NCBI GenBank assembly: GCA_024653205.1
Contig: JANLFO010000008.1
Location: 1-64,000, forward strand
Direction of reading: 5' to 3'
DNA length: 64,000 nt
Origin: Clostridia bacterium
Lineage (GTDB): Bacteria; Bacillota; DSM-521; Neomoorellales; SLTJ01
How positions within the stretch are numbered: position 1 is the stretch's first letter; each line of letters starts with the position of its first letter. Below are positions 15,843 through 33,922 of the stretch, one piece after another. The position numbers were made by a program, and so were the translations under genes. The notes beneath the pieces are model-generated. The model did no database searches. It worked only from the letters and a program-made list of their open reading frames with translations, and had not been told where the DNA came from.

Positions 15843-15866
15843 CGTTATGCCGAGTCTAGCATAGCG
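15843..15866 (-). promoter_or_regulatory. ModE-like operator, site 1, over the promoter of uptake operon A
   Basis: Dyad CGTTATGC-N8-GCATAGCG. On the minus strand TTGACC and, 17 bases on, TAGACT form a promoter whose -10 falls inside the dyad, as expected for a repressor site. Architecture (8-8-8, outer CG, inner TATRY) equals the other four sites in the window and, from memory, the E. coli modA operator CGTTATAT-N8-ACATAACG. Confidence 0.7.
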
Positions 15867-16119
15867 ACTGTCAACGGTCAAGTCCCGGTTGGCCTAATCT
15901 CCCGGTCGGCCTTTCGAGTCGCGGCGGGAATGCACCCCGTCCGCACCATTCCGGCCCCCGGTTTCCGTGACCTGCCCGCGGTGCCCGGCCTGGGCCGGCA
16001 GTGCGAGACGCAGAAAGATCCACATAGGACGAGTATCCGGGAGCGCCGTCCAGGAGCACAGCCGTAGAAAACTATTGCGGACACAGGATCGGGCTGAGGT
16101 CCGTTTGACCTGAAGGCAA

Positions 16120-16143
16120 CGCTATGTCTAAATAAACATAGCG
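16120..16143 (+). promoter_or_regulatory. ModE-like operator, site 2, upstream of the DUF364 gene
   Basis: Perfect dyad CGCTATGT-N8-ACATAGCG. TTGACC at 16105-16110 and CTAAAT at 16128-16133 are 17 bases apart, so the -10 lies in the spacer of the dyad. The DUF364 gene starts 51 bases further on. Confidence 0.72.
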
Positions 16144-16194
16144 CTCTGAGCAATCCCGGCCACCGGGGATTTCAGAGGGGAGGAGCGGTAAGCC

Positions 16195-16986
16195 ATGATG
16201 ATCGACCGGATCATAAGAGCCGCACTGCCGTCGGCTGCCGGCAGACGCGTCCAGGATGTCCGGCTGGGCCTGGGCCTGTGCGGGGTCATGCTGGATGACG
16301 GTTCCTGCGGGGTGAGCTTTGTCTTTCGCAGCGAGATTACCACTCCGCATTGCGCAGTGGTGGACGATCAGGGTGCCCTCGCGGGACGCGAGGTGACCGA
16401 GGTTATACCCTGGGCCGCCGACTATCGCAACCTGGCCCGCGCGTCGATCGGTGTGGCGGTCTTGAACGCGCTTAGCCAGAAGAGCCTGCCCTCGGGGGCG
16501 GCCGAGGGGGATGCACTGGACTGGTTGGAGATAAGCCCCGACGACGTGGTGGGAATGATTGGCTATTTCAAGCCTCTGGTTGAGCCGGTGCGCCAGAAGG
16601 CCAAAGCATTGATGATTTTCGAGCGCCGCCCGTCCGACGACGACCCGGACATTTATCCCGACTGGGCAGAACGGGCTCTGCTGCCGCAGTGCTCTGTGGT
16701 GATTATTTCCGGCACCACCATTATCAATAAGACTGTCGATCAAATCCTGGAATGGTCTACCGGCGCGCGGGAGATAGCCCTGGTGGGCCCCAGCGTGCCT
16801 TTTTATCCCGAAGCCTACCGGGACTCCGGTATTACTCTCCTCGGTGCCTCGCAGGTGGGCCCGGGTTCGGAGCGCGTTATCCTCGATCTGATCGGTCAGG
16901 GAGGCGGGGGGCTCAGTCTTTTCGGCCACCTGAGAAAGGTTACCGTCCGGCTTCCCAGGTGTTTCCAAGGAACTCAGGGCAGATAG
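16195..16986 (+). CDS. DUF4213/DUF364 (putative heavy-metal chelation) protein
   Basis: The 263-residue cytoplasmic protein has an N-terminal DUF4213-like part (IRAALPSAAGRRVQDVRLGL, then the TTPHCAVVDD segment) and a C-terminal DUF364 Rossmann-like domain with VGMIGYFKPLVEP and VVIISGTTIINKT motifs. DUF364 proteins are often found beside metal or cofactor transporters; the chemistry is not established. Start ATG 16195 (followed by a second ATG) has GAGGGGAGGAG upstream. It is the first gene after operator site 2 and precedes a ruined ATPase gene, so this is probably a collapsed uptake operon. Confidence 0.85.
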   Translation: MMIDRIIRAALPSAAGRRVQDVRLGLGLCGVMLDDGSCGVSFVFRSEITTPHCAVVDDQGALAGREVTEVIPWAADYRNLARASIGVAVLNALSQKSLPSGAAEGDALDWLEISPDDVVGMIGYFKPLVEPVRQKAKALMIFERRPSDDDPDIYPDWAERALLPQCSVVIISGTTIINKTVDQILEWSTGAREIALVGPSVPFYPEAYRDSGITLLGASQVGPGSERVILDLIGQGGGGLSLFGHLRKVTVRLPRCFQGTQGR

Positions 16987-17057
16987 CCTTCCCAGAATGG
17001 GGGAGACAATCGCTCACCGGGGCTGCGAAAACTCGATTTCTGGCGAGGTGCGGAGCC

Positions 17058-17600
17058 GTGTCCGATAGAGGGTGGGAGCCTGTCACTCTGGTTCCGCTGG
17101 GACAGGTGGAATCGGATTTTACCCTTTCTGATTCCCCGGAGTATAGCCGGGAAGCCTTCGGAGCCCGTTCGGGAGAAATCACGGTCCTGCTGGGTCCCAA
17201 TGGGTGCGGCAAGACCACTCTCATACGCTGCCTGCAAGGCCGGCTACGCCCCCAGAGCGGGAACGCCACCTGGCGAGGGCGCACGCTGCTGGACATGTCC
17301 CACGTGCAAATTGCCCGAACCATGGCCGTAGTTCCCCAGGAGCATACACCTCTCTTCCCTTTCACGGTTGACCCCAACCTCGCCTATACCTACGCCGATC
17401 ACATCGTCCTCCTGGCCAAGGGCAGGGTGGCGGCTCAAGGCCGCCCTCCGGACGTAATGACCGAATCCCACCTGAGTCAGGCGTATGAGTGTCCGATTCG
17501 GGTTGCCTCTTTCTCCGGCTTTGTGGAGGAGGGCGTCGGGGGCGCCGTTATTAGCCCCAAGTCGGTCGCCCCGCAGCAATATATAAGCGTGGCTCAATGA
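17058..17600 (+). pseudogene. ABC transporter ATPase with internal deletion
   Basis: An open frame of 180 codons retains Walker A (LGPNGCGKTT) and the Q-loop region (VVPQEHTPLFPFTV), then jumps directly into the H-loop tail (DPNLAYTYADHIVLLAKGRVAAQG). About 100 residues holding the signature LSGGE and Walker B are absent, so no ATP hydrolysis is possible. The segment before Walker A is also poor. The intact paralogues at 10358 and 19974 have TVHDPN or TLHDPN at the corresponding place, so the deletion probably ran between short ACGGTT-like matches. The frame was kept, but the product cannot work as a transporter ATPase. Confidence 0.85.
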
Positions 17601-17868
17601 TTGAACCGGGGCCATGGAACGGTCGGGCTTGGCCGAAGTGAGCGGAGCAGACATCGTAGCGGAGCGGTTGCGGAGAAGGGGCTAGACTTTAGGAGGGTGA
17701 ACGCGGGACGGCGTTATGCTGGAGGGGACATAGCGAGACCGGGCTCGCAGGTGGGCACATGAAGATCAGAAGGGAGGAACCGATCAAATGGGCTAATCCG
17801 ATCGAAGGGGTACCAAGCCAAGCAAAGCATTGACGCTGGCAACATCAACAAGCAGGGGGTAAGGAAAT
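17601..17868 (+). other. Leader region of uptake operon B
   Basis: 268 bases between the ruined ATPase and the binding-protein gene. It carries operator site 3 at 17712-17735. A 24-codon frame at 17760-17834 with no family resemblance may be chance. No riboswitch motif was recognised. Confidence 0.4.
17712..17735 (+). promoter_or_regulatory. ModE-like operator, site 3, upstream of uptake operon B
   Basis: Dyad CGTTATGC-N8-ACATAGCG with the same 8-8-8 spacing as the other sites. It lies 134 bases before the binding-protein start. The overlapping promoter is not obvious. Confidence 0.65.
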
Positions 17869-18927
17869 GTGAAAGGACGCAGCTGTAAAGTCAGTGCGTT
17901 GATCCTGACCACAGTTCTGTCTCTGGTATGGCTGGCGGGAGGTTGCGGTCAGCCCGCTACCGGGCCGGCGCAGGGAGGGGCGAAGCCTCAGACCATTACG
18001 GTCACCGACCAGCTGGGTCGTCAAGTAGAACTGCCCGCCAAAATCGAAAAGGTGGCGGCCTTTCACCATTTCGGTGCCAAGCTGATCTACGCCATGGGGC
18101 AGCAGGACAAGCTGGTGCACCAGGCTTTACTCGGCGTGGAAGCCAAGGCGATGGCCAAGGTCGATCCCAAGTTCGCAGCCCTGCCCAACCTGGAGGCCGA
18201 GGGACACGATGTCAATATCGAAAGTGTGGTGGCCCTTGGGCCCCAGGTGGCCTTTGTCTACAGTTCGTTTGATCAAAAGGAACTGGAGGCGCTCGAAAAC
18301 GCCGGCATTAAGGTGATCGGCCTCAGGGGCGAAACCCTGGAGGAGAGCTATGAGGCGGCCAGACTGGTGGGTAAAGTGCTGGGGTGCGAAGACAAGGCAG
18401 AGGCCTATATAAAGTACTGTCAAGACCTGGTGAAAATGGTTCGGGATCGGCTGGCCGACCTGCCTGCCGACCAGCGTCCAAAAGTGCTGTGCGCCGGTCC
18501 CAAGAGCATCTTCACCGCAGCCACCGGGGAAATGCTGCAGTCGACCATGATTGAGCTGGCGGGTGGCAAGAACGTGGCCGCCGAACTCAAGGGGTTCTGG
18601 GCTTCGGTGTCGCCGGAACAGATCGTGCAGTGGAACCCCGACTACATCTTACTGGGTTCCTCGCTGGGCAAGGTTTCCGTGGGTGACGCCCTCAAGAATC
18701 CCGGCCTCCAGACGGTCAAGGCAGTCAAAGAGGGCAAGATATATGCCATTCCCTCGAATATAGGCTGGTGGGACTTCCCGGCCCCACAGTGCGTGCTGGG
18801 CATCGTTTGGATGGCCAAGACCCTGCACCCGGATAGGTTCCGGGATGTCGACCTGACCAAGATGGCCGACGATTACTACAGCCGGTTCTGCGGGTATTCC
18901 TTCACCGCTCTGGGCGGCAAGCTTTAA
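17869..18927 (+). CDS. ABC transporter substrate-binding lipoprotein (uptake operon B)
   Basis: FecB/BtuF-class binding protein, 352 residues, with signal peptide and lipobox LAGGC. It shares QTITVTDQLGRQVELPAKIEKVA and VSPEQIVQWNPDYILL with the operon A protein, and both end with a TALGGKL / SEVGGTL-like tail. The start GTG 17869 follows GGGGGTAAGGA; an out-of-frame ATG overlaps it. It is followed by a permease, an ATPase and the remnant of the radical SAM pair, the same set as operon A in a different order and orientation. Confidence 0.9.
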   Translation: MKGRSCKVSALILTTVLSLVWLAGGCGQPATGPAQGGAKPQTITVTDQLGRQVELPAKIEKVAAFHHFGAKLIYAMGQQDKLVHQALLGVEAKAMAKVDPKFAALPNLEAEGHDVNIESVVALGPQVAFVYSSFDQKELEALENAGIKVIGLRGETLEESYEAARLVGKVLGCEDKAEAYIKYCQDLVKMVRDRLADLPADQRPKVLCAGPKSIFTAATGEMLQSTMIELAGGKNVAAELKGFWASVSPEQIVQWNPDYILLGSSLGKVSVGDALKNPGLQTVKAVKEGKIYAIPSNIGWWDFPAPQCVLGIVWMAKTLHPDRFRDVDLTKMADDYYSRFCGYSFTALGGKL

Positions 18928-18964
18928 ACCGTTCGGTACGGCATAGGTTGACCGGGGGGTTGAC

Positions 18965-19993
18965 ATGAAGAAGGGCTGGAGAACGGGTCTGGTCGTGGCA
19001 CTTATCGGGAGCATAGTTGTGGCCATGAACTCGGGCCGTTACGCCGTCAGTCCCGCCGGGGTACTGAGCATCCTGGCTCACGGCGTGGGTCTGGGGGGCT
19101 TGGTATCCCCACCCACGCCGGAGATGGAAATGGTGTTTTGGAATATTAGGGTGCCGCGTATCCTGGTGGCCTTCACTGTAGGCAGTGCTCTTTCCGTGTC
19201 CGGCGCCGTACTCCAGGCCCTTTTCCGCAACCCCCTGGCGTCGCCCGACATCGTAGGTGTAACCCAGGGCGCCGGGTTTGGAGCTGCGCTGGCGCTTATG
19301 TTCTTCCCGCCCTTGAGCGCGGTGGTGCAGGGCTCGGCGTTCCTGTTCGGTATCCTGGCGGTAAGCATTGCCTACCTTTTGGCCTCCCGAAGCCCGGACC
19401 GCTCGGTGGCGGTATTAGTCATTACCGGCATAGTGGTTTCCGCGGTCTTTCAGGCCGGTCTTTCTCTTCTTCAGTATTTCGCCGACCCCTACGACCAACT
19501 GGCCAAAATCGTCTTCTGGATTATGGGCAGCTTTCAGACCGCCTCCTGGGGCAACGTTCGCACAGTCGTCCCCCTGGTGGCGGCCGGAACGCTGTTACTG
19601 GTGGTGTTCGGCTGGCGATTGAACGTGATGGCGCAAGACGATGAGCAGGCTCTATCCCTGGGAATAAACGTCCCGGCCTGGCGCCTGTTATACGTCTTTC
19701 TGGCCACGCTCATTGTGGCCTCGTCAGTCTCGGCCACCGGCAATATTTCCTGGGTGGGTCTGATCGTACCGCATATCGGCCGCTACCTGGTCGGCTCGGA
19801 ACACCGGCGGTTGGTGGCCACCTCAGCCCTGATTGGGGGGATATTTCTGGTGCTTATGGACACCGCTGCCCGTTCCCTAATGCCAGGGGAAATCCCCATT
19901 AGCATCGTCACCTCGATGGTTGGGGCCCCATTCCTGGCCAGCCTGGTATTGAGCCGAGGAGGTGTGCTCAAGCGTGAGCATACGAGTGGATAG
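18965..19993 (+). CDS. FecCD/BtuC-type ABC transporter permease (uptake operon B)
   Basis: 342 residues, about ten membrane segments. Diagnostic: GAVLQALFRNPLASPDIVGV, TQGAGFGAAL, ISWVGLIVPHIGRYLVG and PGEIPISIVTSMVGAPFL. Start ATG 18965 lies after GGGGGGTTGAC. It overlaps the ATPase start by 20 bases, so translation is coupled. Paralogous to the permeases of operons A and C. Confidence 0.92.
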   Translation: MKKGWRTGLVVALIGSIVVAMNSGRYAVSPAGVLSILAHGVGLGGLVSPPTPEMEMVFWNIRVPRILVAFTVGSALSVSGAVLQALFRNPLASPDIVGVTQGAGFGAALALMFFPPLSAVVQGSAFLFGILAVSIAYLLASRSPDRSVAVLVITGIVVSAVFQAGLSLLQYFADPYDQLAKIVFWIMGSFQTASWGNVRTVVPLVAAGTLLLVVFGWRLNVMAQDDEQALSLGINVPAWRLLYVFLATLIVASSVSATGNISWVGLIVPHIGRYLVGSEHRRLVATSALIGGIFLVLMDTAARSLMPGEIPISIVTSMVGAPFLASLVLSRGGVLKREHTSG

Positions 19994-20786
19994 CCTGGTG
20001 GCCGGCTACGGGGAAACGCAAGTACTGCACGGCGTGGACCTGGTAGTCGAGGAGGGTCAGGTCTGCGCCCTGCTGGGTCGCAACGGTTGCGGAAAGACGA
20101 CGCTGCTGCGCTGTATAAATGCCATCCTCTCTCCCAGGAGCGGCTCGGTAAGGGTTAGAGAGCAGGAGGTACGGCACCTATCTCGTCCCCAGATTGCCGG
20201 GCTGATCAGCATGGTGCCTCAGAGCGCGACGACCGTGTTTGCTTCCACGTGTTTGGAGATGGTTCTACTGGGGGAAACGCCCCGGTTGCGGGTGTGGTCC
20301 TCACCGGGGAAAAGCGCGCGTCGACGGGCCCGGCAGGTGCTGGCAGAAATCGGCATCGAGCACCTGGCAGAGCGACCGTTCACCGAGCTTTCCGGCGGGG
20401 AACGCCAGTTGGTCCTGCTGGCCCGGGCTTTTTTCCAGGACACCCCGGTCATGCTCCTGGATGAGCCCACTTCTCACCTGGATTTCTGCAATCAGCACCG
20501 GGTTATGCATCTCATGCGCCGCACGGCGAAGATGCGGGGCGTAACGGTGCTAGTGACGCTGCACGATCCGAATCTCGCCTTCTACTATTGCGACTGCGTA
20601 GCGATGTTGAGGGACGGCAGGGTGGTGGCCCAGGGCCCCACCGGCCGGGTAATGAAGGACGAAAACCTCAGGCAAGTTTACGGCGACAACATCAAGACCG
20701 ACATCACCAGCGTCGGCCTACCCGTAGTAATTCCGAGAAGCTGCGTGGGGGACGGGAAGCGAGAGCGGTTCTCTTTCTCGGCCTAA
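19974..20786 (+). CDS. ABC transporter ATPase, FecE/BtuD type (uptake operon B)
   Basis: 270 residues with complete motifs: Walker A GRNGCGKTT, Q-loop MVPQS, signature LSGGERQ, Walker B VMLLDEPTSHLDF and H-loop TLHDPN. It is closest in the window to the operon A ATPase, sharing the GIEHLAERPFTELSGGERQL / GIGHLASRPFPELSGGERQL block and an FFQDTP / IFQDTP stretch. Start GTG 19974 has GAGGAGGTG nine to ten bases upstream, preferable to GTG 19962, which lies within that site. Confidence 0.9.
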   Translation: MSIRVDSLVAGYGETQVLHGVDLVVEEGQVCALLGRNGCGKTTLLRCINAILSPRSGSVRVREQEVRHLSRPQIAGLISMVPQSATTVFASTCLEMVLLGETPRLRVWSSPGKSARRRARQVLAEIGIEHLAERPFTELSGGERQLVLLARAFFQDTPVMLLDEPTSHLDFCNQHRVMHLMRRTAKMRGVTVLVTLHDPNLAFYYCDCVAMLRDGRVVAQGPTGRVMKDENLRQVYGDNIKTDITSVGLPVVIPRSCVGDGKRERFSFSA

Positions 20787-20810
20787 CACTCTGTGGGAGG
20801 GGTACCTAGT

Positions 20811-21402
20811 ATGCTGTGCAACTACTGTGAGCGCCGTTGTGACCTTTCCCAAGGCAGGAGCGGCTTCTGCAAGATGTACTTCGAAGAAGAGGGGGTGATT
20901 AAAGAGCGGTTTCCCGACCGGTGGTTCGTGCACTCCGTTTCTCACATTGAGTCCGTCCCTTTCTTTCACGTCTATCCGGGCAGCAGGAGCCTGGTATTCG
21001 GAACCGCCGGCGGCAGTGTCCCCGCCATTACCGACATATGCGGTTTGATCGAAGCCAGGTTGCAGGAACGGCCGGTGGCGCTCATCCTGGTGGAGGGCGT
21101 GGGCATCTCCGATTTTCCCCTGGCCTACCAGCCCTGTCTTAACGGCAAGAAGTGGTATTACTACGAACCCGGTGAAGGTCAGTAGCCTGCCCTCGAATGT
21201 ATTAGGACGCCGCTTCAACGGCAAAAGCGTGGCTGTGGGAAACCGCAGCATGTTCATGCACGTGGCCGGCGGCACGCACCTATCAGTGGAGTGTTTTGCC
21301 CGGATGTTATACAACCACGGAGTCATGGCCGTGGTGGACCGGGACAGGGCCCGATGGCCGGAGCCGGCCGATTTAGATGCGGGAAAGGGAAAGGAGGAGT
21401 AG
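20811..21402 (+). pseudogene. Fusion remnant of the radical SAM enzyme and its 404-residue partner
   Basis: Codons 1 to about 65 match the N-terminus of the radical SAM protein at 12406-13467 (CNYCERRCDLSQGRSGFCKMY, VSHIESVPFFHVYPGSRSLV). Just before the SAM cluster motif the frame passes directly into the C-terminal third of the partner protein (VALILVEGVGISDFPLAY). It stops at 21185; after a second deletion and frame change the partner's end continues (KSVAVGNRSMFMHVAGG, VECFARMLYNHG) to 21402. A start ATG with GGGAGGGG persists. Two deletions thus merged a coupled gene pair like 13467-11195. No radical SAM activity can remain. Confidence 0.85.
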
Positions 21403-21409
21403 TACGGTG

Positions 21410-21907
21410 ATGGCTGTTCACTCCGTGACCGGTTTGGCGGTCAATAAGCATGGGCAGGGACCCAAGCGCACCCGCCCGGCTGCCTGGCTGGGCGCGATCC
21501 TGGCGCTGGCCGTTCTGCTGCTTCCGGCAGGGTGCGGTCAGACGGGGGGCGGAGCGGCTAAGAAAGAGGTGCCCAGCAGCCAGGGTCTCAAGATAATGCG
21601 CGGTGATCAAGTAGTGCGGGAGTTTACCCTGGAAGAGCTCAAGAAGCTACCGCAGGCCACAGTAGAGGCCGACGGCGCCACCTTATCCGGGCCTACGGTC
21701 AAGACGGTCTTGGGGGAGGCGGGCATAACTTCCTGCAATGAGGTGCTGCTGGTCGCCCCCGACGGTTACACGGTCACGCTTACGAACGATCAGCTTACCG
21801 ACGACCTCATTCTTGCCCTGAATGAGCAGGGCGTAAAGGAACTCGTCTCGCCCGCGCTGCCAAAGCAAACGCGCATCCGTGGGCCTGACACCGTTAAGGT
21901 GCAGTAA
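21410..21907 (+). CDS. Lipoprotein with a small sulfite-oxidase-fold-like domain
   Basis: 165 residues: a basic N-terminus, hydrophobic core and lipobox LLPAGC make it a lipoprotein. The mature part (FTLEELKKLPQATVEADG, GPTVKTVLGEAGI, VLLVAPDGYTVTLTNDQL) resembles short forms of the molybdopterin-binding oxidoreductase (SUOX) fold, without the cofactor cysteine that I would expect. It may be a binding subunit for the ECF transporter that follows 14 bases on. Start ATG 21410 (or GTG 21407) has AAAGGAGGA upstream; an earlier in-frame ATG at 21377 overlaps the remnant gene. Family call is tentative. Confidence 0.6.
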   Translation: MAVHSVTGLAVNKHGQGPKRTRPAAWLGAILALAVLLLPAGCGQTGGGAAKKEVPSSQGLKIMRGDQVVREFTLEELKKLPQATVEADGATLSGPTVKTVLGEAGITSCNEVLLVAPDGYTVTLTNDQLTDDLILALNEQGVKELVSPALPKQTRIRGPDTVKVQ

Positions 21908-21921
21908 GGGAGGCCGGGCTG

Positions 21922-22479
21922 TTGGCAAAGGGGCGGTTTTACTTCACTACCTACGATTTGGTGTTGATAGCCATTATGGCGGCAGCCCAGGCGGTATTCG
22001 GTATTGTGGTATCCAAGTTCGGTATGACACTGGGCCACGGCGTCCATTTTCCCGGCGGGTCGATCGTTGGTGGCCTCTATTACGTTTTCATCCTGTTGGC
22101 CCGGGGCCTTACCGGCAAGTTCGGCTCGGCGGTGGTGGCCTGCGAGCTGGAGGCGCTCATCGTGGCGGTGATCGATCCGGGGCGCATGGGTTTCCTGCGT
22201 TTAATCAGCTACCTTCCTTCGGCGCTGGCGGTGGACCTGGTGCCGCTTATTACCCGCGATCACCGGCTGGAGCGGCCGGTACCCAATCTCCTTACCGGCG
22301 GGTTCGGCAACGCCGTGGGCATGTTGACCACGCTCACCTTCTACATGGGGCTACCGTTGGGGTACGTACTGCTGGCCTCGGGAGTGGGGTTTGTTTCGGG
22401 AATGCTTCTAGGCGGCCTGGTGGCGTGGCGGCTGGCTGCTTCGCTGCGCAAGAGCGGGCTCTTGAACCTTGCCGGCTGA
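21922..22479 (+). CDS. ECF transporter substrate-binding (S) component
   Basis: 185-residue membrane protein with about five or six hydrophobic segments, small and without ATPase motifs, of the YkoE/S-component kind (FYFTTYDLVLIAIMAAAQAVFG start). It is followed by a fused double ATPase and an EcfT protein, an arrangement like B. subtilis ykoE-ykoD-ykoC (thiamine precursor uptake). Substrate cannot be read from the sequence; no TPP riboswitch or ModE-like site precedes it. Start TTG 21922 has AAGGGAGG upstream. Confidence 0.75.
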   Translation: MAKGRFYFTTYDLVLIAIMAAAQAVFGIVVSKFGMTLGHGVHFPGGSIVGGLYYVFILLARGLTGKFGSAVVACELEALIVAVIDPGRMGFLRLISYLPSALAVDLVPLITRDHRLERPVPNLLTGGFGNAVGMLTTLTFYMGLPLGYVLLASGVGFVSGMLLGGLVAWRLAASLRKSGLLNLAG

Positions 22480-22516
22480 ATCTTTCCTTTAAGCCCGAGC
22501 GGCGGGAGGCAGGAGC

Positions 22517-24346
22517 TTGATCCGGGTATGCGATCTTTCCTTCCGTTATCCGGGCGCGCCCACCTGGGCGCTCCAGGGGATCAGCTTCGAATTGGCCCGG
22601 GGTCGGGTAGCCCTGGTGCTGGGCAAGAGCGGGTGCGGCAAAAGTACCTTGGCCCTGTGTCTGGGTGGTCTAATCCCGAACGTGATACGTGGAGAGTATC
22701 GGGGGCGGGTCGAGATGGCCGGCTTGAACACCGCGAAATGCCGCCCGGGGGAGCTGGCCACAAAGGTGGGCCTGGTGTTTCAGGATCCGGACAGCCAGTT
22801 GTCCCAGCTTACCGTGGCCGACGAGGTGGCATTCGGTCCGGAAAACCTGCTGGTAGACCCGCGGGAGATACCCCGGCGAGTGCGCTGGGCCCTGGAAAAG
22901 GTCGGACTGGCCGGTTTTGAGCGGCGCTCCGCCCTCCGCCTCTCCGGGGGCCAGAAGCAACGGTTGGTTATCGCCGCCGCCTTGGCCACCGGTGCGCAGA
23001 TCCTGGTGCTCGATGAACCTACTTCGAACCTTGACGGCCGGGGTACGTCGGAGGTGCTGGCCACCCTGGCGGAGTTGCGCCGTCAGGGTCTAACTATGGT
23101 GGTGATCGAGCACCGGGTGGAGGAGATGGTGGAACTGGCGGATGTGGTTATGGTCATGGACAACGGCCGGCTGGTGATGCAGGGTCCGCCGCGACCGCTC
23201 CTGGCCAAGCGCTCCCTCTTCAGGGAATTGGGCCTATCCTACCCCAGTACGGCCGACCTGTACTACTCGGTGTGCCCCGGGGACGGACCAGACCCGCCGC
23301 TCAATCTGGCCGAGCTCCGGTCACGGTTGCCGAGCGGGAGCGGGGGCGGGGTGGAGGTGGCGTTGTCACCTCCTCAGACCGAGGGGGATGGTGAAGACGG
23401 GCTGGAGGGCGCCGGAGGCGCCGGCCCGTGCCGGGCGGCAGCTACAGTACCTCGGGTGGGGAAGCCGGTGGTAGAGGTGGACGGCGTCACCTTCGGCTTC
23501 GAAGACGTACCGGTGCTGGAGGACGTTAGCTTTACCCTGGAACCGGGCACTCTGACCGTGCTTCTGGGGCCTAACGGCAGCGGCAAGACCACCCTGGCCT
23601 TGTTGGTGGCGGGCCTGCTCCGACCTTGGAAGGGGAAGGTGCGGGTGGCGGGCCGGGACCCGGCGGAGGTTCCGGCCCGTGAGCTGGCCTCGTTGGTGGG
23701 GTTGGTATTTCAAAACCCCAACCAGCAGATCGTTCAGGATACGGTTCGGTCCGAGATTCTGCTCGGCCCAAGGGTTCTGGGGCTGGCGGAGGCAGTCGAA
23801 GGGCGCCTGGAAGAACTGCTGGCCTTTCTCGGCCTGGCCGGCCTGCCCCACCGCCACCCGCACACGCTGAGCCTGGGTCAGAAAAAGCGCCTGGCCCTGG
23901 CCACCGCCCTGATCAGCAACCCGCAGGTAATCGTCGTGGATGAGCCCACCACCGGGCAGGAGGCGTTCCTGGTGCGGCAAATGGTCAATCAGCTTCGCCG
24001 GCTGGCCAGCTCCGGCTCCTCGATTCTGGTCATCACGCACGACCTGGGCCTGGCGGCAGAAGTTGCGGACCGAGTACTAGTTCTGGCCGAGGGCAGATTG
24101 CAATATGCCGGCTCCCCGGAAGGTTTCTTTTGCAATCCCCACCTGGTAGAGAAGTGTGCTGCCCGGGTGCCGCCTTTGGTCAGGTTGGTACAAGAGTTGG
24201 GCCTGCCTTTGCGCCCCACGGTGGAGAGCGTGGCCAGATGGTACCGGAGCCACGACGGTGAATCCTTGCGCGGGTATGGCTCCTCAGGCCGAGACGGTTG
24301 GCTTCCGGGGAGGAGGCAGGAGCTTACCCACTTGGAGGTTGGCTAA
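22517..24346 (+). CDS. ECF transporter ATPase, two ATPase domains fused
   Basis: 609 residues. Domain 1 (about 1-250): Walker A GKSGCGKST, LSGGQKQR, Walker B ILVLDEPTSNLD. A Gly/Glu/Pro-rich linker spans roughly 270-315. Domain 2 (about 318-560): Walker A GPNGSGKTT, a signature changed to LSLGQKKR, Walker B VIVVDEPTTGQ and ITHD. Both have VFQDPDSQ/VFQNPNQQ Q-loops typical of ECF (CbiO-like) ATPases. One chain therefore replaces EcfA1 and EcfA2. TTG 22517 follows GGGAGGCAGGAG. The LSLGQ second signature is also seen in some active ECF ATPases. Confidence 0.9.
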   Translation: MIRVCDLSFRYPGAPTWALQGISFELARGRVALVLGKSGCGKSTLALCLGGLIPNVIRGEYRGRVEMAGLNTAKCRPGELATKVGLVFQDPDSQLSQLTVADEVAFGPENLLVDPREIPRRVRWALEKVGLAGFERRSALRLSGGQKQRLVIAAALATGAQILVLDEPTSNLDGRGTSEVLATLAELRRQGLTMVVIEHRVEEMVELADVVMVMDNGRLVMQGPPRPLLAKRSLFRELGLSYPSTADLYYSVCPGDGPDPPLNLAELRSRLPSGSGGGVEVALSPPQTEGDGEDGLEGAGGAGPCRAAATVPRVGKPVVEVDGVTFGFEDVPVLEDVSFTLEPGTLTVLLGPNGSGKTTLALLVAGLLRPWKGKVRVAGRDPAEVPARELASLVGLVFQNPNQQIVQDTVRSEILLGPRVLGLAEAVEGRLEELLAFLGLAGLPHRHPHTLSLGQKKRLALATALISNPQVIVVDEPTTGQEAFLVRQMVNQLRRLASSGSSILVITHDLGLAAEVADRVLVLAEGRLQYAGSPEGFFCNPHLVEKCAARVPPLVRLVQELGLPLRPTVESVARWYRSHDGESLRGYGSSGRDGWLPGRRQELTHLEVG

Positions 24347-24363
24347 GCAGCGAGGGAGCATAT

Positions 24364-25194
24364 ATGCGCGTGAACGACGTGATTACCAGTCTTGAACAAA
24401 TAGTGGGCGACCATCCCTCGACTTCTTCCGGTGGCAGATACGACCCTCGGGCCCAGCTCCTGTGGCTGGGGGTAATGGTGGCATTAGCCTTTGTCTCTAA
24501 ATCCTGGTGGTATCTCCTGATTCTGCTCCTGGTTAACATCTTCTTCGTTTTCTTCTTCGCCGTGCCGTGGGCGAGAATTAAGCCCCTGGTACGGCTTAAC
24601 CTCTATATCCTAGGATTCTGTTTTTCGTTTCAGGTCCTATTCAATTGGGACGGTCCGGCGTTAGTATATCTCATACCCAGAGTCTCTGGCGTTGGCCCCT
24701 TCTGGCCCATTACCACTCAGGGGCTTTACCTGGGGGTATCGATGAGTCTGCGCTATGCCGACATTATTCTGCCCTCAATCGTGTTCAGCTCCGTGGTCCG
24801 CTTCAAAGCGTTGTTGCTGGCCTTCACCTCTCTGGGAGTACCGTACCAATTCGGCTATATGGCTCTTACCGCCCTGCGGTTCATACCGGTCCTGATGCGG
24901 GAGAGCGTCCAGATCCAGCAGGTGCAGCGGCTGCGGGGGCTGGCGTTTGACCGGCGCGGCCTCCGGCACAATCTCACGGTGGCCTATTCCCTAGCCATGC
25001 CGTTGCTGGTAAACTGTGTACTGCGGGCGAGAAACCTCAGCTTGGCACTGGAGAGCCGGGGCTTCAACTCTCACCCCTCGCGCACCGTCACCGAACGGTT
25101 GTGCTGGCAGAAGCGGGACAGTCTCCTGGTCGTGTTCCTACTGCTTCTGGTTATTACGTCCCTCGGGCTCCACTGGAGGCTCCCGTGGTTCTAA
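24364..25194 (+). CDS. ECF transporter transmembrane (T) component
   Basis: 276 residues with hydrophobic segments near 40-60, 75-95 and at the C-terminus, and the coupling-helix region RFIPVLMRESVQIQQVQRLRG, the Ala/Arg-Gly motif by which EcfT grips the two ATPases; a second such motif is ALESRGFN. ATG 24364 follows GAGGGAGC. It completes the lipoprotein-S-AA-T unit at 21410-25194. Ligand unknown. Confidence 0.87.
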   Translation: MRVNDVITSLEQIVGDHPSTSSGGRYDPRAQLLWLGVMVALAFVSKSWWYLLILLLVNIFFVFFFAVPWARIKPLVRLNLYILGFCFSFQVLFNWDGPALVYLIPRVSGVGPFWPITTQGLYLGVSMSLRYADIILPSIVFSSVVRFKALLLAFTSLGVPYQFGYMALTALRFIPVLMRESVQIQQVQRLRGLAFDRRGLRHNLTVAYSLAMPLLVNCVLRARNLSLALESRGFNSHPSRTVTERLCWQKRDSLLVVFLLLLVITSLGLHWRLPWF

Positions 25195-25210
25195 CGAAGG
25201 GAAATTCGAT

Positions 25211-27502: not shown

Positions 27503-27526
27503 CGTTATATTTGGGTAAGCATAGCG
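27503..27526 (+). promoter_or_regulatory. ModE-like operator, site 4, upstream of uptake operon C
   Basis: Dyad CGTTATAT-N8-GCATAGCG. Its left half-site is identical to the left half of the E. coli modA ModE operator as I recall it. TTGTGC at 27494-27499 with TAAGCA 17 bases on is a possible promoter overlapping the site. The first gene starts 29 bases further on. The rest of the 177-base gap shows nothing else. Confidence 0.72.
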
Positions 27527-27554
27527 AGCCGTAGCGCAAGGGGGATGGGTTTCG

Positions 27555-28433
27555 ATGCGCCTAGCCGTTCTTCCATGGGCGAGAACGCTCTGTTTCATCC
27601 TGTCTGTTACCTTCCTGGGAGCCTGCTTATGTCCACCCGCCCGCGCCGCCGAAGGCGACGGGACGGGCGGAGGGCGCGATGATCCCCTGCAGCTGGTTTC
27701 TTCCAGCCCGGCCGACGGCGAGAGGAACGTAACCCTGCCGCTACAGGCGATAACGCTTTCCTTCAACAAGAACGTGGTCAACGCTAGTGTGAGGGAGGCT
27801 AACCAGCGCTGTTTCTCCCTACATACCCAGGATAATCAGCCGGTACCCATCCGCGTGGATATGGCGGACGATCAAATCGAGCCGGAAAAGAAGCGGGTGG
27901 TTACCTTGGTTCCTCTGGCCGAATTGAAGCCCGGGACTACTTACACGGTGAGAGTGGCTCCCGAGCTACAAAGCAAGAGCGGTGCCACCTTAGGAGAAGA
28001 ATTAACCATTAGTTTTTCTACTGCCGGGGAGCCCGCAAGCCAGCCCAAAGAGGCTACCAAACCGGTAGAACCGGTAGAGCCGGAGGGTTCTGCGTCTGTA
28101 GAGGGATCTGGGGCTCCCGAGCGCTCGGTCCCGGCGGACAAAGAGTCGGCGGCCGGTTCCATCTCCTCCCAGGGCGCGCAAATGCAAGACCAGTCTCCGG
28201 CTGCGGTTGAGTATTCACCGCGCCAGGAAACCTCGCAAAGCGCAAAAACGGAATACCCGCCCGCTCCGGCGACGGACATTCAAACCCAGTCCTTGCCCGC
28301 CGGGCAGACGCCAGCGGCCAACCCAGCATCGGGCGGCACTTCGACGCTGCCGGCGGTCCTGGGTATCCTCGCAGCCGTGGCTATTGCCGCTGCCGTATTC
28401 ATTCGCAGCAGATACAGGAAGGTGGGCCCTTGA
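27555..28433 (+). CDS. Membrane-anchored Ig-like (Big_5/SbsA-type) surface protein of uptake operon C
   Basis: 292 residues: signal peptide (1-30, ending ARA), one Ig-like domain at about 40-155 (SSPADGERNVTLPLQAITLSFNKNV, LKPGTTYTVRV), a long Pro/Glu/Ser/Thr-rich stalk (about 160-260), and a C-terminal membrane helix LPAVLGILAAVAIAAAVFIR followed by basic residues. The stalk suggests the domain is held out from the membrane. A close relative of its Ig domain is in the SLH protein at 32413-33573. Being first in a BtuCDF-type operon with coupled translation (stop overlaps the next TTG), it may hand ligand to the lipoprotein; this is inference. Confidence 0.8.
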   Translation: MRLAVLPWARTLCFILSVTFLGACLCPPARAAEGDGTGGGRDDPLQLVSSSPADGERNVTLPLQAITLSFNKNVVNASVREANQRCFSLHTQDNQPVPIRVDMADDQIEPEKKRVVTLVPLAELKPGTTYTVRVAPELQSKSGATLGEELTISFSTAGEPASQPKEATKPVEPVEPEGSASVEGSGAPERSVPADKESAAGSISSQGAQMQDQSPAAVEYSPRQETSQSAKTEYPPAPATDIQTQSLPAGQTPAANPASGGTSTLPAVLGILAAVAIAAAVFIRSRYRKVGP

Positions 28434-29440
28434 CTTCGAGGAAGCAGAGATGGCTCTACCTGCTACCACTGGTGCCGGTGCTTTTTATCTTCCTCTCTCT
28501 GTTCATAGGAAGATACCCGGTCCCACCCGTGGTGGCGGCCCATATATTGTGGTCCAAGTTTACTGGCGCCCCCGCCGACGTGCCGGACATCAGCCGGACG
28601 GTAGTGTGGGATATCCGCCTCCCCAGAGCGATATTGGGCGCCATGGTGGGGGGAAGCCTGGCGGCGAGCGGTGCTGCCTTTCAGGGCCTGTTTCGCAATC
28701 CCCTGGTCAATTCCGGCATCCTGGGGGTGAGCGCCGGCGCCGGATTCGGAGCTTCCCTGGCCATATTACTCTTCAAAAGCGTAGTCCTGGTATATGCCTT
28801 CGCCTTTGGTTTCGGCTTCCTGGCGGTCATATTGAGCTACCTGATCGGGCGGATTTATCGCTCGACACCCACCATTATGCTGGTTCTGGGCGGGGTCATT
28901 GTGTCTTCTATGTTCCAGGCCTTGATATCATTCATCAAGTACATAGCCGACCCGTACGAAAAGCTTCCGGCTATCGTATTCTGGCTAATGGGGAGCTTGG
29001 CCAGCGCCCGTTTTCAGGACATTATTGTGGCGAGCATACCCATGTCCGTCGGAATGGCAGGTTTGGTCGCTATTAGCTGGCGCATCAACGTGCTCTCCAT
29101 GGGGGATAAGGAGGCACAGACGCTGGGAGTCAATGTGGTCCTGGAGAAGGGGATAGTGATTTTCTGCGCCAGCCTGGCCACGGCCGGCGCGGTGTGTGTC
29201 AGCGGTATTATCGGCTGGGTCGGGTTGGTCATCCCCCATATCGGCCGAATGATAGTGGGAAACGACAACAGGGTGCTGATTCCCACCAGCATGGCCTTGG
29301 GGGGTGCCTACCTGATTTTGGTGGACACGCTGGCCAGGGTGGTTTCCGGATCGGAGATACCCCTGGGCATACTGACCGCTCTGGTAGGAGGGCCTTTTTT
29401 TGTGTACTTGCTGAAAAAGACCAAGGGTGGGGGGTGGTAA
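28430..29440 (+). CDS. FecCD/BtuC-type ABC transporter permease (uptake operon C)
   Basis: 336 residues, about ten membrane segments, with GAAFQGLFRNPLVNSGILGV, SAGAGFGASL, IGWVGLVIPHIGRMIVG and SEIPLGILTALVGGPFFVYL. Start TTG 28430 overlaps the stop of the Ig-like gene (TTGA), after AGGAAGGTGG. Paralogous to the operon A and B permeases; the YIADPYEKLPAIVFWLMGS block is shared nearly word for word with operon A. Confidence 0.92.
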   Translation: MTSRKQRWLYLLPLVPVLFIFLSLFIGRYPVPPVVAAHILWSKFTGAPADVPDISRTVVWDIRLPRAILGAMVGGSLAASGAAFQGLFRNPLVNSGILGVSAGAGFGASLAILLFKSVVLVYAFAFGFGFLAVILSYLIGRIYRSTPTIMLVLGGVIVSSMFQALISFIKYIADPYEKLPAIVFWLMGSLASARFQDIIVASIPMSVGMAGLVAISWRINVLSMGDKEAQTLGVNVVLEKGIVIFCASLATAGAVCVSGIIGWVGLVIPHIGRMIVGNDNRVLIPTSMALGGAYLILVDTLARVVSGSEIPLGILTALVGGPFFVYLLKKTKGGGW

Positions 29441-29441
29441 T

Positions 29442-30281
29442 GTGCCGCCCCTGGTGGAAGTGCGCAAAGTATCCTTCGCCTACGGCCGGCACGAGGTATT
29501 TCGAGACATCAATCTAGAGCTCGAAGACGGCCACATCCTCTGCATATTGGGCCCCAACGGTTGCGGTAAGACTACTCTGCTTGACTGCATCCTGGGAATC
29601 CTTAAACCTACGCGGGGCACGGTACTGGTTAAGGGAAAGCCGGTATCCAGCATTTCTGCCCGGGAGATGGCGCGGCAGGTAGCCTACGTGCCCCAGATTC
29701 ACGAAAGAACCTTCCCTTACCTGGTGAAGGATCTTGTGCTCATGGGCAGGGCATCCTACCTGGGGCTTTTCTCTTCGCCTTCCCGGGAAGACGAGGAGAT
29801 CGCCGAGTGGGCGTTACAGGAAGTAGGTATGAGCCGTTTCAGGGACCGGCCCTATACCCAGCTCAGTGGAGGCGAGGGACAGTTGGTGATGATTGCTCGG
29901 GCTCTGGCGCAGAAGACCCCGATTATCATCATGGACGAACCTACCGCCCACCTGGATTTCCGGCACGAACTTATCGTCCTCGAAACCATGGTCAGATTGG
30001 TTAGGGATACCGGTGTGTCTATCCTAATGGCCACCCATTTTCCCAACCACGCTTTTTTCTTTGAGAATCACAACCTCCCTACCACAGTGGCCATGATGCA
30101 CCGGGCCGGCCTGGCGGCACTCGGCCCTCCCAGCAAGGTACTGTCGGAGGCCAAGCTCCGAGAGGTTTACGGCATCGATGCCCGGACGCTGACCTGCGAG
30201 CTGGACCGGGGCCGTACTCTGAGGTACGTGGTAGCCGTGAACACGCTATCCGGTCACCAGGGGGGTGCATGCGCAAGTTGA
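29442..30281 (+). CDS. ABC transporter ATPase, FecE type (uptake operon C)
   Basis: 279 residues: Walker A GPNGCGKTT, Q-loop YVPQI, signature LSGGEGQL (Gly instead of the usual Arg after Glu), Walker B IIIMDEPTAHLDF and H-loop ATHFPNHAF. It diverges from the A and B ATPases, for example by a VLMGRASYLGLFSSPS segment typical of FepC-like proteins. GTG 29442 follows a G-rich GGTGGGGGGTGG stretch. Its end overlaps the binding-protein start by 13 bases. Confidence 0.9.
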   Translation: MPPLVEVRKVSFAYGRHEVFRDINLELEDGHILCILGPNGCGKTTLLDCILGILKPTRGTVLVKGKPVSSISAREMARQVAYVPQIHERTFPYLVKDLVLMGRASYLGLFSSPSREDEEIAEWALQEVGMSRFRDRPYTQLSGGEGQLVMIARALAQKTPIIIMDEPTAHLDFRHELIVLETMVRLVRDTGVSILMATHFPNHAFFFENHNLPTTVAMMHRAGLAALGPPSKVLSEAKLREVYGIDARTLTCELDRGRTLRYVVAVNTLSGHQGGACAS

Positions 30282-31399
30282 ACCGGCGGGCGGTTATCAG
30301 GCGTTTCACCACCATTGTCTTATTGCTGATAATCCTGGCCGCAGTCGCAGGTTGCAACGGTACGCCTGGGTCGGAAACGGATCGGAAGGCCATTACCGGG
30401 ACCACGCATACCGTAACCGTTACCGACACCCTGGGAAGACAGGTAAAGGTGCCGGCCAGAATCGAGCGCATTGCCTGCTTATGCCCCTTTTCGGGTGACG
30501 CCGCGGTTATGCTAGGGCAGGGCGACAAGATAGTGGCAGTAATAGGGGGGCTGAAGCGGGAGGTGTTGCTGACGGAGATATGCCCCGCGGTTAAGAGCGC
30601 CGCCGTACCGCGGGTGAGCGGCACCATAAACATCGAGGAGCTGATCCGTTGCGACCCGGACGTAGTCTTCGTCAAGAACGACACGGCGCTGAACGAAGCG
30701 GAGGTCGACAAGCTGAACCGGGCGGGCCTGACCTTTGTAGTGGTGGATTTTCGCAGCATGGAAGAGCAGCGGTACGCCATGAGGCTGATGGGCCAGGTTC
30801 TCGGGGCCAGCGAAGAAGCGGAAGAATACAACCGTTACTACGAGAGTTGCCTGGAGCGGGTGCGCAAGGTAGTGGAGCAAATACCGGCGGAGCAGAGAGT
30901 CCGGGTCTATCACTCGCTTAATGAGGCCACTCGCACCGACTACACCCAGAGCCTGCCGGCGGACTGGACCCAGGCGGCGGGGGCCATCAACGTTTCCGTA
31001 AACCAGCAATTGAAACTGGTGGAAAACGAATACTACGCCACCCTGGAACAGATTCTGCAGTGGGACCCGGATGTGATTATTTGCAACGAGCCCGCAACCT
31101 TAGATTACATCATGAGCAACGAGCAATGGAGCCCTCTTAAGGCGGTAAAAAGCCGCAAGGTATACCTGATGCCCATCGGGGTTTCGCGGTGGGGCCATTT
31201 TAGTTCCCTGGAAACGCCCCTGGCGGTACTCTGGACGGCCAAGACCCTGTACCCGGACCGCTTCCGCGACCTCGATATGGTGGCGGAAACCAAGTTCTTC
31301 TACCGCCAGTTCTTCGATCTCGAGCTCTCCGACGAGATGGTTTCTCAAATTTTGTCCGGAGAGGGCCTGCGCTTGCCCAAGCAGGCAGAAGCAAAGTAG
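30269..31399 (+). CDS. ABC transporter substrate-binding lipoprotein (uptake operon C)
   Basis: 376 residues, FecB/BtuF class. Signal peptide with lipobox VAGC, then HTVTVTDTLGRQVKVPARIERIA, INIEELIRCDPDVVFV and LEQILQWDPDVIIC. KAVKSRKVYLMPIGVSRWG and ETPLAVLWTAKTLYPDRF match the lower lobe of the A and B proteins, so all three likely bind similar ligands. A start ATG lies within the end of the ATPase gene. Confidence 0.9.
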   Translation: MRKLNRRAVIRRFTTIVLLLIILAAVAGCNGTPGSETDRKAITGTTHTVTVTDTLGRQVKVPARIERIACLCPFSGDAAVMLGQGDKIVAVIGGLKREVLLTEICPAVKSAAVPRVSGTINIEELIRCDPDVVFVKNDTALNEAEVDKLNRAGLTFVVVDFRSMEEQRYAMRLMGQVLGASEEAEEYNRYYESCLERVRKVVEQIPAEQRVRVYHSLNEATRTDYTQSLPADWTQAAGAINVSVNQQLKLVENEYYATLEQILQWDPDVIICNEPATLDYIMSNEQWSPLKAVKSRKVYLMPIGVSRWGHFSSLETPLAVLWTAKTLYPDRFRDLDMVAETKFFYRQFFDLELSDEMVSQILSGEGLRLPKQAEAK

Positions 31400-31424
31400 G
31401 CAGAGGGAGGAGGCATTACTTGCC

Positions 31425-32171
31425 ATGCGCACCTTTATAGCCATCGACGACACGGATAATATCCATACGAAGCGAGGAACCGGCAAGCTTGCCGCTGCCC
31501 TGGCCCAGATGATTGAGGAGCGCGGGTGGGGACGGGGCAGCCTGATCACGCGCCACCAGCTATACGTGCATCCGGATGTGCCCTATACCTCGCATAACAG
31601 TTCCATGTGCTTTGTTTCGGAGCTGAAAGAAGAATATCTCGGTGACCTGATCGAGCTTGCCGGTGACTTTCTGGCCAAGGAGAGCGCGGAAGGGTCGGAT
31701 CCCGGCCTATGCGTGGCCGTGGCCGGGCGGATCCGCAAGGTGGAGGCACTGGTGGACTACGGGCGAAGGGCCAAGGTTAGCGTGCTCACTAAAGCGGAAG
31801 CATACGGTCTGGCGGAGGAACTGGGAGTGCACCTGTCCGAGCACGGCGGCACGGGCCAGGGGGTGGTGGGCGCCCTGGCTGGGGTGGCGCTCAGGCTAAG
31901 CGGCAACGACGGGAGGGTGAGAGGCAAGCTTCAGGTCGAATCGGAGGCAGGAGTGGCCACGGTCCGGGAGATCCTGAGGCAGGCCCGCGTTTCCCGGGTT
32001 CAGAGCCTGGACGGTCGGGTCTTGGGGAACGACGAGCTGATCAGGTTGGGAGACAGGGTAAAGGCAGTTATGCTGGGCGGAGAGCCGGTACTGCTCGTGA
32101 CACCGTTGGCGCAAAGCGCCGGCGGGGCCAAATGGCAGACCTTGACCAAGGAGCAGCTGAGGGCTTTCTAG
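31425..32171 (+). CDS. TiaS N-terminal-like (ferredoxin-like, DDTDN motif) protein
   Basis: 248 residues. The start RTFIAIDDTDNIHTKRGTGKLA is the signature of the catalytic domain of archaeal tRNA(Ile2) agmatidine synthetase TiaS and of stand-alone bacterial relatives. The zinc ribbon and OB-fold of TiaS are missing, so tRNA modification is unlikely. The middle has YGLAEELGVHLSEHGGTGQGVVGALAGVALRLSGNDGR. Positioned 25 bases after the operon C binding protein with GGGAGGAGG upstream, it seems to be the last operon gene. A nucleotide- or metal-linked role with the uptake system is a guess. Confidence 0.65.
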   Translation: MRTFIAIDDTDNIHTKRGTGKLAAALAQMIEERGWGRGSLITRHQLYVHPDVPYTSHNSSMCFVSELKEEYLGDLIELAGDFLAKESAEGSDPGLCVAVAGRIRKVEALVDYGRRAKVSVLTKAEAYGLAEELGVHLSEHGGTGQGVVGALAGVALRLSGNDGRVRGKLQVESEAGVATVREILRQARVSRVQSLDGRVLGNDELIRLGDRVKAVMLGGEPVLLVTPLAQSAGGAKWQTLTKEQLRAF

Positions 32172-32412
32172 GGAGTTGTTACCGGGAGGTCCCTCGGCGC
32201 GGGCGGGGTTGTGCAGCAGCAGGGCGGTGCATACCGGAAAGGGGGTGGCTAGGCGCAACGACTTTCTGGGCTTCGCGACATACCTACGCTATTCCACCGG
32301 TACATCGATTAGTGCCACCACAGCTTATTGCGCGTAATGGGGGCCGAACCGGAGCGGGCGAAGACCGCCTGGCCCGGGGTTACGCCAAGGCAAAAGAAGG
32401 GGAGGCAGGAGC
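32172..32412 (+). other. Gap before the SLH protein gene
   Basis: 241 bases without a convincing frame, without a copy of the 24-bp dyad and without a clear terminator. The SLH gene may thus be read from operon C or from a promoter that I cannot identify. Confidence 0.3.
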
Positions 32413-33573
32413 ATGTTTCTTAACCGGTTTAGGAAGCGGACTCCGTTGTTCGTTTTCTTATCGGTTCTCTCAATGCTTTTCATGCTTTCTGTGGCCAGTG
32501 CCTGGCCGGCATTCGCCGGCGGCGGAGGGGGCGGCGGTTCTGGCGGGGGTCAGAGCGAACCCTTTGCCTTTATAGGAGCCTACCTCACAACTGTCACCGG
32601 TAATACCTTTGCCGACATTCAGCCACTGACTGGTGCGGAGATTCAATCGGTAATGCCTACCATTAGGTTAGAGTTCAACAAGAACGTGACTTCGGAAACC
32701 GTATGGTCGGAAAATCAGGCCTGCTTCATTCTGCGCGAATCCTCCGGTAACCAGGTGCCTATAATCGTCACCAGGATCGGCACCGGAAGCCAGGATTCGC
32801 CGACCGAGCAGAAACGCAACGTATTCATCGCGCCCCAGACCGAATTAGTCCCGGGTAAAAGCTACGAGATAGTGATTAGTGCGAAACTCAGAGCTCAAGC
32901 CGGGACCGCTCTAGGGGCGGATAAGACGGTCAACTTCTCCGTAGCCCCGGCAGCGGCCCCGCCGGCAGACGGCGCCGCCGGCCAGCCCCAGATCGAGCCG
33001 TCAGCGCCAGTTACATTCACCGACATTGCGGGGCACTGGGCGCAACGGGATATCGAGTTCATGGCCGAAGCAGGTATGGCCGAGGAGGTTGCGCCGGGCA
33101 AATTCGGTCCCTCGGATCCGGTTGGCCGGGCGCAATTTGCGGCCTTCCTGAATCGTTGCCTGGGTATCCAGGAAGTCAGGCCGGAGCAGGGACACTTTAA
33201 GGACGTACCGGCTTCATCCGGATATTACGGCGCGGTGGAAACGTCACTTGCTAACAGGCTAACGGTCGGTTACGGTGACGGCACTTTCAAACCGGACGCA
33301 GGTATCACCCGCCAAGAAGTGGCCTGCGTGATCTCGCGCGTGCTGGCCAGAGCCGGCAGGCCGATCGCGGTTGTCGGGGCGGATGCAACACTGGCCCGCT
33401 TCACCGACGCTTCCCGGGTCAGTTCGTGGGCCGAAGAGGCGGTCGCTGCCGTGGCCAGTCAAGGAATAATGGTGGGTAGGGAAAGCGGGCGCTTCGCTCC
33501 TCAAGATACTATCAATCGAGCCGAGGCCATGGTGATACTGAAGCGCGTGAAGGAATTACTCGGCCGGGCGTAA
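32413..33573 (+). CDS. S-layer-anchored Ig-like protein with three SLH repeats
   Basis: 386 residues: signal peptide to about 37 (ending AFA), Gly-rich linker, an Ig-like domain at about 45-180 related to that of 27555-28433 (IRLEFNKNV, LVPGKSYEIVISAKL), Ala/Pro linker, then three SLH repeats from about 198 (FTDIAGHWAQRDIEFMAEAG; GHFKDVPASSGYYGAVETSL with TVGYGDGTFKPD; FTDASRVSSWAEEAVAAVA with RESGRFAPQD). SLH domains bind pyruvylated wall polymers, placing the Ig domain at the cell surface. ATG 32413 follows GGGGAGGCAGGAG. It probably works with uptake operon C. Confidence 0.85.
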   Translation: MFLNRFRKRTPLFVFLSVLSMLFMLSVASAWPAFAGGGGGGGSGGGQSEPFAFIGAYLTTVTGNTFADIQPLTGAEIQSVMPTIRLEFNKNVTSETVWSENQACFILRESSGNQVPIIVTRIGTGSQDSPTEQKRNVFIAPQTELVPGKSYEIVISAKLRAQAGTALGADKTVNFSVAPAAAPPADGAAGQPQIEPSAPVTFTDIAGHWAQRDIEFMAEAGMAEEVAPGKFGPSDPVGRAQFAAFLNRCLGIQEVRPEQGHFKDVPASSGYYGAVETSLANRLTVGYGDGTFKPDAGITRQEVACVISRVLARAGRPIAVVGADATLARFTDASRVSSWAEEAVAAVASQGIMVGRESGRFAPQDTINRAEAMVILKRVKELLGRA

Positions 33574-33877
33574 GGCACGCTTACAACGTGCCGGTTGTTG
33601 ATAATGTGGACTGATCGGTGGAGGCCCGTCATCCTTCGTCAGGCTGAACCCGGGCGGGGACAGGAATCGACGTAGGATTGGGAGCCAGAACCGCCAGCCA
33701 GGCAAACCGGGTACACACCTGTGCGGGGTTGGCAAGGTCCTGGCCGCCCAATAATGAATGTACATGCATGGTGTTGAAGAATAGAGAAGGCCGGCGCCCG
33801 CTGGCGCAGCCTATGCCTAGGCTGCCACCACGGGGCTCATAGCGAGAATATGCGTGTCCGCCGCGTGCCAGCAAGTA

Positions 33878-33907
33878 TTGACACCCTGGCATGGGGGGCG
33901 CTATGCT
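33878..33907 (+). promoter_or_regulatory. Promoter covered by ModE-like site 5
   Basis: TTGACA (33878-33883) and TATGCT (33902-33907), 18 bases apart, form the best promoter match inside the element. The -10 is embedded in the left half of the operator at 33899-33922, so binding there should block RNA polymerase. Confidence 0.55.
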
Positions 33908-33922
33908 TAAACAAGCATAACG
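33899..33922 (+). promoter_or_regulatory. ModE-like operator, site 5 (orphan)
   Basis: Perfect dyad CGCTATGC-N8-GCATAACG apart from one C/A mismatch of the third base pair; same 8-8-8 layout as sites 1-4. No uptake gene follows directly. Confidence 0.65.

Follow-up and report, generated by a model that had tools for sequence, protein, structure and literature searches.

Dyads and genes in the window

The analysed window (the whole stretch of 64,000 nucleotides) contained five exact 24-bp matches to the dyad CGYTATRY-N8-RCATARCG. No match occurred in 100 dinucleotide shuffles of the window, and permitting up to three mismatches added three weak matches. The first-pass annotation had placed the five dyads correctly and its consensus fits exactly at each of them. 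They are listed here, without strand:

15843-15866: ModE-type dyad CGTTATGCCGAGTCTAGCATAGCG, ahead of the PBP-FecCD pair on the minus strand; promoter-like sequence (9/12) on the minus strand
16120-16143: ModE-type dyad CGCTATGTCTAAATAAACATAGCG, heading the DUF364 gene; promoter-like sequence (9/12) on the plus strand
17712-17735: ModE-type dyad CGTTATGCTGGAGGGGACATAGCG, heading a PBP-FecCD-ATPase-ECF run; no readable promoter
27503-27526: ModE-type dyad CGTTATATTTGGGTAAGCATAGCG, heading a Big_5-FecCD-ATPase-PBP run; no readable promoter
33899-33922: ModE-type dyad CGCTATGCTTAAACAAGCATAACG, covering the -10 of TTGACA-18-TATGCT, before a PAS-GGDEF gene

The genes behind the dyads were identified as follows:

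13527-14573, minus: MolB-like FecCD permease (Pfam; best solved relatives)
14573-15751, minus, likely start near 15631: MolA-like PBP (Pfam; best solved relatives)
16195-16986, plus: DUF364/DUF4213 gene, putative heavy-metal chelation (Pfam)
17869-20786, plus: MolA-like PBP, MolB-like FecCD permease and ABC ATPase (Pfam; PDB relatives)
21410-21907, plus: lipoprotein with a PruR/sulfite-oxidase-like fold (weak PF00174; relatives; model and Foldseek)
21922-22479, plus: ECF S component PF09819 (general Pfam match)
22517-24346, plus: fused double ECF ATPase, part of the ECF importer 21922-25194
24298-25194, plus: CbiQ-type T component, part of the same importer
25016-26596, plus: MATE-family exporter (Pfam), start uncertain, overlapping the CbiQ frame
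27555-28433, plus: Big_5/CopC-like secreted protein (Pfam)
28430-29440, plus: FecCD permease of the 27503 run (Pfam; PDB relatives)
29427-30281, plus: ABC ATPase of the 27503 run (Pfam)
30269-31399, plus: PBP of the 27503 run (Pfam; PDB relatives)

Each dyad had been thought to precede an uptake unit. This held for 15843, 17712 and 27503, while 16120 heads the DUF364 gene followed by a broken ATPase (16752-17600), a decayed copy in which an internal deletion removed the counterpart of about residues 97-201 in the intact paralogue (19962-20786). It did not hold for 33899: no uptake gene lies behind this site, its nearest downstream gene being PAS-GGDEF at about 460-480 bp, and a search for a hidden target found no gene in the leader and, as sole repeat, the start of the GGDEF paralogue. 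Similarly, the dyads were said to cover the -10 wherever a promoter could be read, which was clear at 33899 and plausible at 15843 and 16120; at 17712 and 27503 no promoter was readable. The region 33899-36149 thus combines the best promoter-dyad of the window with a PAS-GGDEF gene, of which a paralogue with 71% identity is located on contig C5. A link between Mo/W and c-di-GMP signalling is possible at this dyad.

Two further reading frames accompany the transporter genes. Within the 17712 operon, 20793-21185 is an N-terminal fragment of the radical SAM protein encoded at 12406-13488, a decayed duplicate with 52% identity; behind the 27503 transporter genes, 31425-32171 displayed weak likeness to methanogenesis marker 11 and to a TiaS domain. 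The window also harbored CobQ/CobB-like amidotransferase genes of the cobalamin pathway (786-3749), LigD primase-polymerase and Ku genes (5825-8678), a serine recombinase with a sigma-70 region 4 protein as possible mobile-element genes (37371-39310), and a c-di-GMP-I-GGC riboswitch (57153-57239, 69.8 bits).

The E. coli operator and sites in the host genome

The E. coli modA operator given in the first-pass annotation was correct: in strain MG1655, CGTTATATTGTCGCCTACATAACG ends 20 bp before modA and fits CGYTATRY-N8-RCATARCG exactly. The published E. coli ModE consensus, ATCGNTATATA-N6-TATATANCGAT, has its core in common with the window dyads (PMC545781). An operator of the CGNTATAT-N8-ATATANCG type was displayed by the five window sites and by E. 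coli modA alike, the host dyads being its TATG variant.

The host assembly (2.46 Mb) contained seven exact sites, of which five were in the window, and none for the reversed pattern; other genomes of the 300-genome phylum set never exceeded three exact sites. With the refined pattern CGNTATGYN8RCATANCG and at most one mismatch, 11 host sites were obtained versus 0 in controls. A looser pattern with two mismatches gave 14 in the host genome versus 5 in the control, so that two-mismatch sites rest on their context. Sites outside the window were:

C9:88236: precedes a 4-hydroxybenzoyl-CoA reductase operon (TIGR03194 over cut-off)
C9:88651: precedes mop, a 71-residue molbindin (TIGR00638 over cut-off)
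C9:79711: precedes a second DUF364 gene
C9:89687: close to the end of the contig, without an evident target
C23:10473: precedes moeA
C30:19546: precedes tupA (two mismatches)
C4:83: precedes tupB (two mismatches)

Matches on contigs C7 and C39, located in or near the coding sequences of rpsD and gpr, were taken as chance. Host targets thus included Mo/W transport, cofactor and enzyme genes. The modABC operon itself (C3) was without a site, as only a match with three mismatches, at chance level, was found there. The regulon, initially described as lying inside the element, is genome-wide and extends to other contigs. The sites predicted near mod/tup/moa-type genes were encountered both in this genome and across the phylum.

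At four of the 12 host sites (33899, C9:79711, C9:88236 and C30:19546), the -10 of a promoter scoring at least 10/12 falls within the dyad; flank shuffles averaged 0.06 such sites. This arrangement would fit repression by occlusion.

Distribution in other genomes

Exact dyads were detected in 41 out of 300 phylum genomes. Among 35 exact-dyad loci from other Bacillota genomes, 28 displayed a Mo/W gene within 1.2 kb according to tblastn, where modA, tupA/B, a MOT1-like transporter, MolA-type PBPs, yqeB and modE were counted; in two of these 28 (L050 and L051) the gene was 520 and 1184 bp from the site. The other seven had no such neighbor. A motif lying mainly at iron or cobalamin genes, named beforehand as an argument against Mo/W control, was not the pattern observed, since a single locus out of 35 (L042, among the seven) adjoined a cbiM-like gene, identified by eye.

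ModE domains were present in 27 of the 41 motif genomes versus 63 of the 259 others (Fisher p=4e-7, relatedness uncorrected). In the surroundings of 80 ModE-N genes, taken from named genomes across many phyla, 22 sites with at most one mismatch were found versus 0 in controls; the genomes concerned include Moorella stamsii and Carboxydocella. At five loci (L034, L044, L045, L053 and L060), a ModE DNA-binding domain fused to a PBP/TupA-like domain was encoded near the dyads. Such fusions are possibly an alternative way of sensing Mo/W.

The candidate regulator

The host encodes two stand-alone ModE DNA-binding domains, one of 111 residues on contig C9 and one of 132 residues on contig C3, the latter adjoining modA. 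The former is:

G000:C9:74316-74651: ModE-N, 111 residues, recognition helix SYRQAWG

Their matches to TIGR00637 (E=2.6e-22 and 4.9e-19) stayed under the curated NCBIfam cut-off, which was likewise not reached by any match in the 300 phylum genomes. When a profile was built on the C9 protein, it recovered the E. coli ModE structures 1b9m and 1o7l. The genome therefore does encode a ModE-family DNA-binding protein, the absence of which would have spoken against the proposal. Neither protein contained a TOBE domain; in the host, TOBE was restricted to Mop and a TupC-like ATPase. The C-terminal molybdate-binding TOBE domains of ModE are thus lacking, and the name ModE is valid for the DNA-binding half only. 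Stand-alone ModE DNA-binding domains were previously reported in Desulfovibrio, where the sensing mechanism was called unclear (PMC545781). Genes for ModE-N and Mop adjoin in three distant genomes.

Recognition helices with SYR were associated with TATG half-sites (18 out of 19) and those with SYK or SYS mostly with TATA (8 out of 14), in small samples whose half-sites are not independent. As host sites are of the TATG type, the C9 protein (SYRQAWG) is favored over the C3 protein (SYNKAWY). TaoR and TunR were rejected as binders: the host genome had no regulator of the HTH-PBP_like or integrase-TOBE kind, and its PBP_like matches were MoeA-, PstS- and TupA-like proteins.

Operator identity, Mo/W targets throughout the genome and promoter overlap at several sites together support the dyads as operators, and the comparative evidence gives good support to the ModE-type Mo/W regulon that was originally proposed. 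The dyads are very probably operators bound by a regulator of the ModE type. The C9 ModE-N is the likeliest candidate and is predicted from these sequence data to repress, as a split ModE, genes for Mo/W acquisition. Arguments on the other side are the missing sensing domain of this protein, the modABC operon without a site, the dyad-free homologues of the window PBP and DUF364, the mixed FecCD and DUF364 families, and the dyad at 33899, which has no evident Mo target.

Substrate of the FecCD systems and alternative readings

Families FecCD and Peripla_BP_2 serve mostly iron and B12, and FecCD/DUF364 systems are commonly annotated as iron or B12 uptake. In the window, each of the three permeases had MolB (HI1471) as its best solved relative, ahead of BtuC by about 100-134 bits. 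MolA was among the top three solved relatives of the window PBPs (fourth row by fold) and, of the binding proteins with a published oxyanion ligand, ranked highest, the iron protein YiuA being not far behind. MolB and MolA were thus the nearest characterised relatives of the window systems. No cobalamin riboswitch was found in the window. Two genomes of the host's order carried Moco/Tuco riboswitches at homologous operons, composed of MolA-DUF364-FecCD (L188) and DUF364-FecCD-ATPase (L156); cobalamin riboswitches were found near one homologous PBP locus (L196) and at the host C33 DUF364 locus (L153). The FecCD and DUF364 families are therefore mixed in riboswitch context. Earlier work on genome context connected DUF364 with genes for molybdate, tungstate, vanadium and iron (PMC2954201).

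The likeness to MolA and MolB and the riboswitches on homologous operons suggest that the window FecCD systems are probably Mo/W importers. The dyads could also be ModE sites in front of systems carrying iron-siderophore, haem or cobalamin, with an indirect Mo control that would, for instance, match iron or B12 supply to demand. The usual cargo of these families, the closeness of YiuA in fold, the CobQ/CobB-like genes at 786-3749 and the cobalamin riboswitches at some homologues all agree with such a cargo; it is nevertheless unlikely given the rank of MolB for each permease and its margin over BtuC, the placing of MolA, the Moco/Tuco riboswitches on homologous operons of the same order, and the lack of a cobalamin riboswitch in the window. 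Concerning the binder, the C3 protein is a ModE domain as well and might occupy the sites, alone or in common with its paralogue. This is decidedly improbable, as it carries a different recognition helix (SYNKAWY), TATG half-sites are associated with SYR helices, and the modABC operon beside it has no such site. Finally, the dyads could be repeated DNA that spread with duplicated transporter genes and has no operator function; duplicated and decayed genes do lie between the sites, and 33899 has no uptake target. However, the copies share their half-sites only, not their centers or flanks, and the motif also stands at unrelated Mo genes, on further contigs as well as in other phyla, which makes such a spread extremely improbable.

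Returning to operators of a ModE-type regulator, their targets seemed to vary between lineages. No motif with at most one mismatch was found at homologues of the window PBP (28 loci of other genomes). DUF364 was rejected as a general ModE target, since about 30 DUF364 loci (relatives and the host C33 paralogue) had no motif; a DUF364 scan of named genomes also found nothing. The PBP and DUF364 targets of the window therefore look lineage-specific, with MolA-type targets at L052 and L058 as exceptions for the PBPs.

The ECF cassette with a PruR-like lipoprotein

Gene order suggests that the ECF genes belong to the 17712 transcript. A survey with the S component retrieved the cassette in 62 out of 399 phylum genomes. 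The 41 best-scoring loci of the survey list (L211-L251) were read and, within the fetched stretches, displayed mobB in 29, the lipoprotein in 31, CbiQ in 30 and ModE-N in five. These loci contained five exact dyads versus 0 in each of six control patterns, and nine with one mismatch versus 0-2. Dyads were located directly upstream of the cassette in three loci (L211, L212 and L214). A Moco/Tuco riboswitch was present upstream on the same strand in 12 of 19 scanned cassette loci, and in none of the three dyad loci. Genome G072 has a tupA-dyad-modE locus, after which come two more dyads and then lipoprotein, S component, ATPases, CbiQ and MobB.

The window cassette is without mobB, and its S component had no NCBIfam model, the match being to the general Pfam family. 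Its lipoprotein is divergent, sharing 36% identity with one relative across 74 residues. In Foldseek, the lipoprotein model (pLDDT 75, pTM 0.58) was closest to PruR, followed by sulfite oxidase and YedY-type proteins, with TM of about 0.5. The riboswitch authors named "sulphite oxidase" genes under P3-lacking Moco RNAs among possible exceptions (PMC2408646); these genes could encode PruR-like lipoproteins of the present kind.

A tentative reading, which we consider rather doubtful, is that the 17712 cassette represents a new Mo/W-linked pterin importer, taking up a molybdopterin-related piece or a Mo/W-chelating pterin and switched by ModE dyads or Moco/Tuco riboswitches according to lineage, with a split ModE sensing through Mop as regulator. 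The DUF364 protein may then make, and the MATE protein export, the chelator.

Proposed mechanism and comparison with known systems

Under sufficient Mo/W, the C9 ModE-N would occupy the dyad and block RNA polymerase at the -10. Under low Mo/W the dyads would be vacated, and the MolBCA-like FecCD systems, the ECF importer with its PruR-like lipoprotein and TupAB would be made. A regulator devoid of TOBE domains must depend for sensing on a partner or some other signal, and the separate Mop, itself under a dyad, would be the best candidate partner. The combination of a classic ModE operator with a sensor-less regulator makes it directly testable how ModE fragments sense Mo/W. It also provides regulatory grounds for classing some FecCD/DUF364 systems as Mo/W systems, and it brought to light an ECF cassette that is widespread and linked with mobB, Moco/Tuco riboswitches and ModE.

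Like the E. coli ModE regulon (modABC, moa), the present one displays the 8-8-8 operator and a related DNA-binding domain; unlike it, the regulator is without TOBE domains, modABC is without a site, and FecCD, DUF364 and an ECF importer are among the targets. The single ModE DNA-binding domain is shared with Desulfovibrio, whose site consensus differs (CGGTCACG-N14-CGTGACCG), whereas the host retains the E. coli-type operator (PMC545781). Haemophilus MolBCA (HI1470-1472) is likewise a FecCD-type ABC importer, and MolA and MolB are near relatives of the window proteins; in contrast to it, three systems are found here under ModE-type dyads, with Mo/W as predicted substrate. The cassette has the S, A and T subunits of ECF importers, and its lipoprotein model resembles PruR pterin-binding proteins. 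The literature searched contained no ECF importer of this type with a link to Mo/W or pterins, and the cassette differs from known ECF importers by its linkage to mobB, Moco/Tuco riboswitches and ModE dyads.
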